Source: Candidatus Zemynaea palustris | Lineage (GTDB): Bacteria; Vulcanimicrobiota; Vulcanimicrobiia; Vulcanimicrobiales; Vulcanimicrobiaceae | Direction: 5' to 3' | Length of the DNA stretch: 60,559 nucleotides | Assembly: GCA_003134695.1 (NCBI GenBank) | Contig: PLCB01000022.1 | Span: 1-60,559 of the forward strand | Shown here: in pieces, positions 2,462-53,617 of the stretch | Layout: the number at the start of each line of letters is the position of its first letter | Numbering within the stretch: position 1 is the stretch's first letter | The notes under the pieces: generated by a model | Databases searched by the model: none | Told to the model about the DNA's origin: nothing | The model's input: only the letters and a program-made list of their open reading frames with translations | Position numbers and translations under genes: made by a program

Positions 2462-3496
2462 CTAGGTGAGCTGCCCGGTCGTTTTCTCCAAGAGTTTCCA
2501 CGCCGCGGGATCGTACTGATCGCGCCAGGTCTTGTACAATCCCGCATCGCGAATGGCTCGGCGAAACGGCTCGCTCGCGGGACGGTTGATCGCGACGCCC
2601 TGCGAACGCAAAGTCGCCTCGAGCGAGTTCTCGGCGTCGGCCATCCCCGTCGACGCCGCCGAGGCCGCGGCGCCGAACTCGCGGTTGACGATGTCTTGCA
2701 GCTTTTTCGGAAGCCGAGTCCATGTATCGTTGTTCGCGACCAGCAGATAGATCAAGCGGCTGTGGCTCGTGATCGAGCAGAACTTGACCAGCTCGTAGAA
2801 CTTGAAGTTCTCAAACGTGGGCAGCGGGATTTCAATCGCATCCACGAGGTGCGTCGACAATGAAGTATATACTTCGGCGAGCGAAATAACCGTCGGTGAG
2901 GCGTCGAACGCCTTGAACGTCGCGACGTCGATCGGGCCGGGCGGGACGCGCATCTTCACGCCTTTGAGATCTGCCGGCGAGTTGATCGGCCCCAGGCGAT
3001 TCTGCATGTGGAACGCGCCGCCATAAAATGCGGCGACGCTTCGCAGTTCGATCTTCGACATGGCGTCCGCGATGTACTCGCCGAGCGGGCCGTTGGCCGC
3101 GCCCATAAACTGCTTAAACGATCCAAACGCGAACGGGATGCTCCACAGCGCAGCGACCGGGACGACGTTCCCAAGAATGTTGTTGCCGATCTGCAAGAAT
3201 TCGAGCGCTCCGCTGCGTGCTTGCCCAAGCATCTGTGGGTCGCTGCCGAGCACGCTCTGGGGGAAGACCCGAATCTCCATCTGTCCGCCCGACGCATCCT
3301 GAACGCGCTTCGCCGCCGCGATCGTCTCGATCGTCATCGGATGCGTCGGCGTTTGGTCGCTGCCAAGCTTGTAACTGAACTCCGCCGCGCCGCCGGGGTA
3401 ACGCAAGAATCCGATCGAGGCAAAAGCCCCGGCCCCCGCTCCAACGGCCAAGAGGCGCCCGCGTGTAATACCGGGGTGGCGATGGTATGAGCTCAT
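2462..3496 (-). CDS. dctP: TRAP transporter solute-binding protein, DctP family
   Basis: A 344-residue DctP (SBP_bac_7) protein, the periplasmic receptor of sodium-driven TRAP carboxylate transporters. The N-terminus has a hydrophobic export signal after TRGR. The central block with KGVKMRVPPGP and SLAEVYTSLSTHLVDAIE is the family's ligand-binding region, and its Arg normally clamps the substrate carboxylate. It is the first gene of the dctP-tcuA-tcuB operon, so a di- or tricarboxylate ligand is likely. The DctQ and DctM membrane subunits do not flank it within the window; they could lie left of the edge or elsewhere. Confidence 0.9.
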   Translation of the reverse strand: MSSYHRHPGITRGRLLAVGAGAGAFASIGFLRYPGGAAEFSYKLGSDQTPTHPMTIETIAAAKRVQDASGGQMEIRVFPQSVLGSDPQMLGQARSGALEFLQIGNNILGNVVPVAALWSIPFAFGSFKQFMGAANGPLGEYIADAMSKIELRSVAAFYGGAFHMQNRLGPINSPADLKGVKMRVPPGPIDVATFKAFDASPTVISLAEVYTSLSTHLVDAIEIPLPTFENFKFYELVKFCSITSHSRLIYLLVANNDTWTRLPKKLQDIVNREFGAAASAASTGMADAENSLEATLRSQGVAINRPASEPFRRAIRDAGLYKTWRDQYDPAAWKLLEKTTGQLT

Positions 3497-25097: not shown

Positions 25098-25240
25098 GCG
25101 CGGGAGTTGCCCGCCGTGCGTCGCGCTACCTAGGAGCCGCCGCTCACCGCCGGGTGTGCACTCGATCTCAGGGGCGGAGGAGGAACCGTAATCATCGAAA
25201 TCCCCGTTTCAAGGCCATCGCGTTCTTGGAGGTTTCTAGA

Positions 25241-25651
25241 ATGAAAACTCTCTCTTTGGGTTTCCTCGTCGCGCTGCTCGTCGTCGTCGTTTCCGCGCCA
25301 GCTGCCGCGATCTCATACTCGAGCGTCACGCTCAGTGTCCCGCTCTCGGTCAACTATCTTCCGGCCGGCACGAAGATACCAGTGCTCTGCGGTTTAAATC
25401 CGCCGCCTGGCTCGGGGATGAAGTCGGGAGCCGAATATCAGACCATTACCGTCCCACCTTTACCACCAGGGAGCACAAGTTATGGGACGACCGTGACCTT
25501 CCAGTTCAATCCCGCGACGTACGGCGGCAAGTCCTTTCCCACCGGCACTGCTTTTACGTGCAGTTTAGGTGCGCCGGGCCAATCGTTCGACATGGGCACC
25601 ATAAATGGGTCCCAGTCAACGACGAGCGTCGGCCCTGTGTTGCTGAAGTAG
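25241..25651 (+). CDS. secreted hypothetical protein
   Basis: 136 residues from ATG 25241, preceded by a strong GGAGG at 25228-25232. A clear signal peptide (LGFLVALLVVVVSAPAAA) leads to a Ser/Thr/Pro/Gly-rich, probably beta-structured body with two Cys (one in VLCGLNPPPG, one in TAFTCSLGAPG). No family is recognised. The next gene starts 4 bp after its stop, so the two are cotranscribed exported proteins. Confidence 0.78.
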   Translation: MKTLSLGFLVALLVVVVSAPAAAISYSSVTLSVPLSVNYLPAGTKIPVLCGLNPPPGSGMKSGAEYQTITVPPLPPGSTSYGTTVTFQFNPATYGGKSFPTGTAFTCSLGAPGQSFDMGTINGSQSTTSVGPVLLK

Positions 25652-25655
25652 TCTC

Positions 25656-25988
25656 GTGCCCAAGTCGCTTCTGATCTCGGTCCTCTGCGGACTCGGGCTC
25701 GCGCTGATGGGGCGAGGTCTTGCCGCCTCGCTGCCGGCTGTGCCGATTCCAGCGACGGTCTCGATGCCGCAAATGATCGTCGTTGGCGCAACCCAAACGG
25801 CGACGCTTCAGATGCCGCAAATGATCGTCGTTGGCGCAACCCAAACGGCGACGCTCCCGATGCCGCAAATGATCGTCGTCGGCGCAACCCAAACGGCGAC
25901 GCTCCCGATGCCGCAAATGATCGTCGTCGGCGCGACTCAACCCGCGACCCTTCAGATGCCGCAAATGATCGTCGTCGGAAAGCATTAA
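25656..25988 (+). CDS. secreted peptide made of 16-residue tandem repeats
   Basis: 110 residues from GTG 25656. A signal peptide (LLISVLCGLGLALMGRGLAA) and a short proline linker are followed by four full copies and one half copy of MPQMIVVGATQTATLP (variable positions: Thr/Pro at 12, Gln/Pro at 16). The last copy stops after IVVG with a Lys-His end. No catalytic motif is present. A regular alternation of MIVV strands and Gly/Thr turns suggests a small beta-rich structural or self-associating protein. It is not a family I recognise. Confidence 0.7.
   Translation: MPKSLLISVLCGLGLALMGRGLAASLPAVPIPATVSMPQMIVVGATQTATLQMPQMIVVGATQTATLPMPQMIVVGATQTATLPMPQMIVVGATQPATLQMPQMIVVGKH
25764..25979 (+). 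repeat. 48-bp in-frame tandem repeat (4.5 copies)
   Basis: Units start at 25764, 25812, 25860, 25908 and 25956 (half unit), exactly 48 bp apart. Each opens with ATGCCGCAAATGATCGTCGT and units differ only at a few positions (for example GTT/GTC and CTTCAG/CTCCCG), which points to recent expansion. Confidence 0.95.
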
Positions 25989-52597: not shown

Positions 52598-53617
52598 TCA
52601 CATTTGAGGTGGAGCGATCCGCGCGATCGTATTGGCAGTGTACACCGTAAACCAGAGTGCGCCGTCCGGACCTGCGGCGATACCGCCGGGCTTGTCAAAG
52701 TTCGTGGCCAAGCGGAACTGCACCACCGTCCCAGCGGTGGTGATCCGGCTAACGCTGCTGGGAAGGATTGACGTGAACCAGAGCGCGCCGTCGGGACCCG
52801 CCGTGATGGCGGTGGGATAACCTCGAGGAACTGCGTACTCCGTGATGTGCCCAGCGGTTGTGATCCGGCCAATCTTTCTGCTGTCGGGTTCGGTAAACCA
52901 GAGCGCATGGTCCGAGCCCGCTGCGATGTCGAATGGGGCGCTCTTTTGCGATGTGTGAATGGGGAATTCCGTGATCTGACCCGAGCGGCTGACCCGACCA
53001 ATCTTCCCGACGCGTTCGGTAAACCAGAGCGCGCCATCGGGACCCAAGGCGATGTCCTGAGGAAACGCCTTTGCGGTAGGGACTCGATAATGTGTTACCT
53101 TGCCGGAGGTAGTGATCCGGCCAATCTGCTGTGCGGCAGGCTGCGTAAACCAGAGCGCACCATCCGAACCCGCAACGATATCAACCGGCCGCGAATTGAA
53201 GCCGGCGCTATACTCCGTGACATGCCCGGCGGTTGTGATCCGACCGATCTCGTTGAGGTTCGGGACGGTAAACCAGAGCGCGCCGTCAGGGCCTAGCGCA
53301 ATACTGCCCGGCTTCGGGTCCACAGAACGCTTGGGAACAGCGTATTCCGTAATCCGCCCTAAGGGCGAGATGGCGATCCGTCCGATCCTCCCCCCGTGGA
53401 GTTCAGTGAACCAGAGCGCAGCGTCCGGCCCCGCCGCAATATCGCCGGGCCAGCCCTCTGCGGCATCTGCATTCTTCTGAGCCGGGAGTACGAACGTGCT
53501 GATTTTCCCGGCCGTTTCGGGCAGCTTAGTGGCGGAGGAATTCCCGTGCGAGCAACTCGCGATCGCCAGCATCGACACTGCTGCAATAAGAGCGCGGGCA
53601 GCCCGCTCCAAGTTCAT
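52598..53617 (-). CDS. virginiamycin B lyase-like beta-propeller lipoprotein
   Basis: 339 residues. The N-terminus has a lipobox (LAIASC, Cys about residue 22). The rest consists of seven repeats of G-x-D-x-A-L-W-F-T ... I-G-R-I, for example ALGPDGALWFTERVGKIGRV, which gives a seven-bladed propeller of the Vgb type. Vgb cleaves streptogramin antibiotics, but most homologues are of unknown function, and here membrane anchoring suggests a sensing or binding role. The DNA coding for the repeats is itself visibly repetitive. Confidence 0.85.
   Translation of the reverse strand: MNLERAARALIAAVSMLAIASCSHGNSSATKLPETAGKISTFVLPAQKNADAAEGWPGDIAAGPDAALWFTELHGGRIGRIAISPLGRITEYAVPKRSVDPKPGSIALGPDGALWFTVPNLNEIGRITTAGHVTEYSAGFNSRPVDIVAGSDGALWFTQPAAQQIGRITTSGKVTHYRVPTAKAFPQDIALGPDGALWFTERVGKIGRVSRSGQITEFPIHTSQKSAPFDIAAGSDHALWFTEPDSRKIGRITTAGHITEYAVPRGYPTAITAGPDGALWFTSILPSSVSRITTAGTVVQFRLATNFDKPGGIAAGPDGALWFTVYTANTIARIAPPQM

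Follow-up and report, generated by a model that had tools for sequence, protein, structure and literature searches.

A recurrent pair of exported proteins, one built of strand-like repeats, in Candidatus Eremiobacterota

The window, that is the whole stretch of DNA analysed here (60,559 nucleotides of Candidatus Zemynaea palustris, contig PLCB01000022.1), belongs to a genome of 2.70 Mb in 61 contigs, in which the locus described below lies on contig C15. Two small genes, called P1 and P2 here, follow each other on the plus strand at 25241-25988, and a sequence-only reading had taken them for a coupled unit of exported proteins. Both open reading frames were confirmed; the stop codon of P1 ends at 25651 and the GTG start of P2 lies at 25656, and this close spacing (4 nt) is consistent with translational coupling. 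Signal peptides were called by visual inspection or with a simple rule based on hydrophobicity, and a scan for promoters and terminators found none. The features of the locus are as follows.

25228..25232, + strand: GGAGG, putative ribosome-binding site by its sequence, 8 nt upstream of the P1 ATG
25241..25651, + strand: P1 gene (P0001), 136 aa, exported protein with Cys50 and Cys107 (open reading frame list, family alignments, AF2 model)
25241..25309, + strand: P1 signal peptide, residues 1-23, ending in APAAA (from the translation; cleavage site placed by eye)
25388..25390, + strand: P1 Cys50 codon; this cysteine is invariant across the family and lies in predicted strand 2 (alignments, AF2)
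25559..25561, + strand: P1 Cys107 codon; this cysteine is invariant across the family and lies in predicted strand 5 (alignments, AF2)
25656..25988, + strand: P2 gene (P0002), 110 aa, exported repeat protein, GTG start
25656..25727, + strand: P2 signal peptide, residues 1-24 (by eye from the translation)
25752..25978, + strand: P2 tandem array, 48-bp unit in 4.7 copies, ATLQMPQMIVVGATQT, units starting at 25752, 25800, 25848, 25896 and 25944

After its signal peptide, P2 consists of five ATLQMPQMIVVGATQT units, and the description of this protein as mostly 16-residue repeats held at the DNA level too, where Tandem Repeats Finder reported 92% matches among the copies at 25752-25978. The segment MPQMIVVG occurs five times at a spacing of exactly 16 residues, and the self-similarity score of the mature protein is 265, against a maximum of 55 across 300 shuffles. 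The whole window has 16 signal-peptide-like open reading frames of 70-200 aa, and none of them apart from P2 encodes such repeats. It is almost uncharged (DEKR 1.2%) and beta-prone. The differences between the units of the array fall at codon positions 1/2/3 in the ratio 9/3/16 (pS 0.219, pN 0.056), so the plus frame looks constrained in spite of the antisense open reading frames that overlap P2. The copy number had also been supposed to vary, and this is borne out in one sister pair only, in which the orthologous P2s have 3 units (L043) and 4 units (L061).

The P1/P2 unit appears to be undescribed, and no family library searched names either protein, in agreement with the earlier remark that no such family was recognised. 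This part of the available libraries comprised Pfam, NCBIfam and PHROGs, with no match above cut-off for P1 or P2. For P2, Pfam offered nothing beyond DUF412 (E 0.76), with neither curlin repeats nor an ice-nucleation match, and for 16 P1s the best result was DUF5980 in one of them (E 0.00013, below its cut-off). In the partial literature collection searched, the pair was not described. Sequence searches covered the phylum, plasmids and viral contigs for P1, phages for P2, and one genome-contig pattern scan for the L062 type. They found no P1 in plasmids, no confirmed P1 in viral contigs and two weak P2 matches in phages (E 0.05 and 0.1), and a repeat profile gave weak matches in G068 and G041 (E 0.009). 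P2 alone matched 49 of 60 relatives at E<=1; the two matches inspected (L002, L005) were both antisense in GroEL, and these were set aside as composition artefacts.

P1 loci are patchily distributed in the phylum. Run against 117 genomes of the class, an initial profile built from four P1-like proteins encoded in the window's genome detected P1 in 4 of them; a ten-row profile, run against 149 genomes of the phylum, had matches at E<=0.01 in 8. With the 16-row profile (E<=0.001), 21 P1 loci were found in 5 of 149 Candidatus Eremiobacterota genomes: 12 in the window's own genome, 6 in G120, which belongs to the same family, and one each in G084, G080 and G094. The weak matches in G019, G118 and G016 (E 0.005-0.009) were gone with the larger profile and are left out of these counts. 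No P1 was found in G001, the sole other genome of the same genus in these lists (74% complete).

In this phylum-wide profile search, homologues of both proteins stand side by side with the same signal-plus-repeat architecture. A P1-type protein lies directly beside an exported strand-repeat protein at 18 of 21 loci, two propeller tails included. The partner is a small exported repeat protein at 16 loci, a propeller tail at two, and the remaining three loci hold a decayed pair, a fusion and a P1 alone; the three loci cut by contig ends (L041, L062 and L102), whose signal peptides fall outside the readable sequence, are counted among the 16. The loci with their partners are given below.

Window's own genome, nine pairs, one cut: the window; C45:172k (L043); C53 (L041, cut by contig end); C41 (L066); C2 (L070); C42:115k (L100); C42:129k (L125); C7 (L126); C42:26k (L127)
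G120, pairs: C265 (L061); C261 (L062, cut); C107 (L063); C1 (L102, cut); C236 (L103); C108 (L121)
G094, pair: L104
G084 and G080, L064:2447-3673 and L065:2180-3406: NHL-propeller proteins beside P1 with four C-terminal units, motif as in the window's P2
Own contig C42, ~188.3 kb, L101:1946-2382: decayed pair, P1 frame frameshifted and preceded by the remnant VTTPPINAVGK
L043:3174-3662: lone P1-type protein on the strand opposite the L043 pair, ~0.6 kb away, unusually basic (15 K/R)

In G084 and G080, the gene after P1 encodes a 408-aa protein that ends in four ALQMPAMSLTGPNPSG-type units and was assigned to the NHL propellers by PF01436 (E 4.2e-12, L064). The fusion, at L042, joins two P1 domains and carries a motif-like TLLSERLIIIGV in the linker. 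The genes of a pair overlap by 4 nt in L100, L126 and L127 and by ~23-29 nt in L070 and L043, and elsewhere they are separated by gaps of 4-42 nt. The repeat profile (E 0.0115) and the P1 profile (E 2.7e-8) each led separately to the pair on contig C2, the locus being part of neither profile. As a prospective check, four P1 loci were new in the last profile search, when the pattern had already been defined, and a repeat partner was present at all four.

P1 is the conserved element of the pair. All 20 readable P1s have exactly two cysteines in the mature part, and the family alignment shows a nearly invariant VP close to the N-terminus. The AF2 model of P1, built from a two-row alignment, has seven strands (pLDDT 74, pTM 0.65). 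The cysteines, Cys27 and Cys84 in mature-chain numbering, lie in strands 22-30 and 81-86, which come second and fifth in the list; these strands may be equivalent to B and F of the immunoglobulin fold, provided that the model is right. The P1 profile's top six matches in the PDB, five to antibody chains and one to Dpr-interacting protein alpha, are all to immunoglobulin-superfamily chains, with E values of 0.09-0.84, none of them significant. Structure comparisons brought up unspecific matches, with a lowest Foldseek E of 0.14 and a top Z of 7.1 (rmsd 2.4, 83 aligned). The model shares an overall sandwich with Ig-like and FnIII-type domains such as RbmA and GH2 accessory domains at Z 5.6-7.1, but values under 8 are unspecific and there is no sequence match. 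The predictions point to P1 as a small, probably immunoglobulin-like beta-sandwich that is probably pinned by a disulphide. The P2 motif was also considered as a mimic of the N-terminal strand of P1 and rejected, the best match falling there with p<0.05 in only one of 16 P1s.

The repeat sequence and its period differ among the copies, while P1 stays recognisable. Periods of 14, 15, 16, 17/18, 21, 23/25, 24 and 25 residues occur in the family, and in L070 the period shifts from 25 to 23 inside one protein; such variation, over 14-25 residues among the copies and from 25 to 23 within L070, suits strand modules on linkers. Repeat regions scored above every one of 300 shuffles in 13 of 13 proteins tested, and among control P1s one of 16 fell under p 0.05. 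A short core, [TM]xx[ILM]x[VIAL], scores above the shuffles in 14 of the 16 repeat proteins, with L063 and L102 as the exceptions, although it was defined with three of the four late loci already seen; in L121, a seventeenth protein unseen at that time, it occurs in 6 units (p 0.0002). Under group-wise hold-out, a motif of nine residues passed p<0.05 in 9 of 13 proteins, failing in L066, L041, L062 and L100; among proteins found later it passed in one of three.

For the orthologues L043 and L061, dN/dS by the Nei-Gojobori method is 0.24 for P2 (77 codons) and 0.71 for P1 (134 codons), and between L064 and L065 it is 0.21 for the propeller protein, 0.20 for its repeat tail alone and 0.62 for P1. 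Judged by these ratios, P2 is under purifying constraint and P1 evolves faster than P2, which is unexpected for a constrained receptor of conserved strands. The similarity matrices of P1 and P2 correlate (Mantel Spearman 0.456, p 0.0002, 17 pairs), also with close pairs dropped (0.348, p 0.0064, 12 pairs); this correlation could come from mere co-inheritance. In the 16-row P1 tree, all partner-first loci fall on one side (91/90). The 20-row tree falls into two weakly supported halves (61/82) that differ in gene order and repeat type, and L126 breaks the order rule, since its gene order is flipped, yet it keeps the repeat type of its own half, as far as this weakly supported tree goes.

The analysis establishes both genes, the repeats, their coding constraint, the recurrence and co-divergence of the pair and the invariant cysteines; that the repeats assemble at the surface is inferred. 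P1 and P2 probably come together outside the membrane. The reading that we prefer, at a probability of roughly 0.45, is that P1 recognises P2 as a string of beta-strand modules and that the complex acts as a surface or matrix scaffold. It is suggested because the two genes are tightly linked and co-diverging, and because the strand core persists while its spacing changes, both inside a single protein and where it forms the tail of another. Both proteins would cross the inner membrane by means of their signal peptides; each P2 module would offer a core near [TM]xx[ILM]x[VIAL], set off from the next by spacers of varying length, and P1 would recognise these strands, most likely via beta-strand pairing. 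A single P2 chain might be decorated or guarded by several P1 copies; this complex would form the scaffold, and an NHL propeller that carries strand modules at its C-terminus would be attached to it through them.

The strongest rival is a curli-like functional amyloid, a possible but doubtful explanation in which P2 is a fibre subunit stacking as a beta-solenoid and P1 a dedicated periplasmic chaperone against aggregation, like CsgC or CsgH. A nearly uncharged, beta-prone P2 speaks for this, and so does its single-sequence AF2 model, in which each unit has two strands and the repeats pack against one another in a solenoid-like sheet (mean pLDDT 64.5, pTM 0.50), a picture that favours self-assembly over docking. 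The best structural matches of this model are bactofilin 6ria (Z 8.7, rmsd 2.6, 80 aligned) and the CsgA fibril 8enq (Z 7.4, rmsd 8.8, 84 aligned), at a low model confidence and with scores that are common for repeats. According to PMC5135000, both CsgC and CsgH are Ig-like sandwiches of seven strands that carry disulphides. An exported strand-rich repeat protein with a small disulphide-bearing sandwich partner recalls the curli proteins, the fold and disulphide of P1 being predictions. However, the mechanism of CsgC is electrostatic, as PMC4838910 has it, and P2 is almost without charge; unequal spacers and a propeller tail also fit a regular fibre poorly, and neither a sequence match to curli proteins nor a CsgE/F/G operon was seen. 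A CsgG-family match above cut-off was found in two of the five pair-carrying genomes (the own genome and G094), as it was in 4 of 14 control genomes, and none was found in G120, G084 and G080 (G120 and G080 73% complete, G084 90%). The own CsgG-family gene is isolated (L109:2338-3276, contig C7), with no CsgE/CsgF-like neighbour noticed, and CsgG genes that are isolated or missing tend to speak against a true curli system. Donor-strand complementation in chaperone-usher pili would follow the same logic of strand addition, with Ig-like domains and short hydrophobic strands, but the strands here are repeats in a separate protein, and the usher family PF00577 was found in none of the five pair-carrying genomes (three of them <90% complete), with a positive E. 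coli control; a chaperone-usher system is not supported.

Three further explanations carry much less weight. That the pair is low in complexity and spread by duplication with no selected function would agree with its patchy occurrence in 5 of 149 genomes, the decayed copy at L101 and the dN/dS of 0.6-0.7 in P1, yet it is improbable given a dN/dS of 0.20-0.24 in P2 and the tail, two cysteines in 20 of 20 P1s and a linkage kept across deep divergence. A repeat protein that binds or nucleates ice would account for the 16-residue period of the window's P2 and for the TxT within ATQTAT, and a relative comes from a sample of palsa, which is permafrost peat. The repeats of known bacterial ice nucleation proteins likewise have 16 residues, with Thr and Tyr turned outward (PMC9418140), and they are predicted as a beta-solenoid. 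P2, however, has only five units, no Tyr and no Pfam match, sister copies have periods of 14, 15, 18, 21, 24 and 25 residues and several are without TxT, and the partner gene is constant, which makes this explanation very improbable. Least probable of all is binding of Cu+ or Ag+ by methionines: the MxxM motif, which has a role in binding such metals, is repeated as MPQM, five times in the window's P2 and three times in L070, but it is absent from the other 7 of 9 proteins counted, and in 3 of 4 L065 units the second Met is replaced by Leu where L064 has Met, a hydrophobic exchange.

A broader form of the preferred strand-recognition reading, which we regard as rather unlikely, is a modular docking code, in which each P1 family would read its own short repeated strand and about ten parallel strand-receptor pairs per bacterium, specific in sequence and located outside the membrane, would build fibres and hang enzymes or propellers on them. 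If true, it would be a new extracellular assembly system with the logic of cohesin-dockerin or donor-strand pairs, unrelated to either. Should P1 read the P2 strand, each pair would be a small orthogonal peptide-receptor couple that shows how strand-pairing specificity diverges and could possibly serve as a tool; should the pair be a curli analogue, a repeat protein with a sandwich chaperone would have arisen again. The pair is a testable unit of a soil bacterium, in a little-studied phylum that is almost without functional data, and the nine pairs of the own genome are natural variants for comparing specificity.

Some observations concern the surroundings of the loci. Beta-propeller proteins (Vgb_lyase, Lactonase and SGL-like) lie near several P1 loci, at L042:3204-4904, L101:2710-3366 and L064:103-819, and a reading frame in the window, at 52616-53461 on the minus strand, resembles the Vgb-type propeller lipoprotein of L042. 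The L043 pair is flanked by two related small open reading frames (L043:1277-1741 and 2771-3109; 80% over 79 aa), which might be marks of a mobile or duplicated segment.
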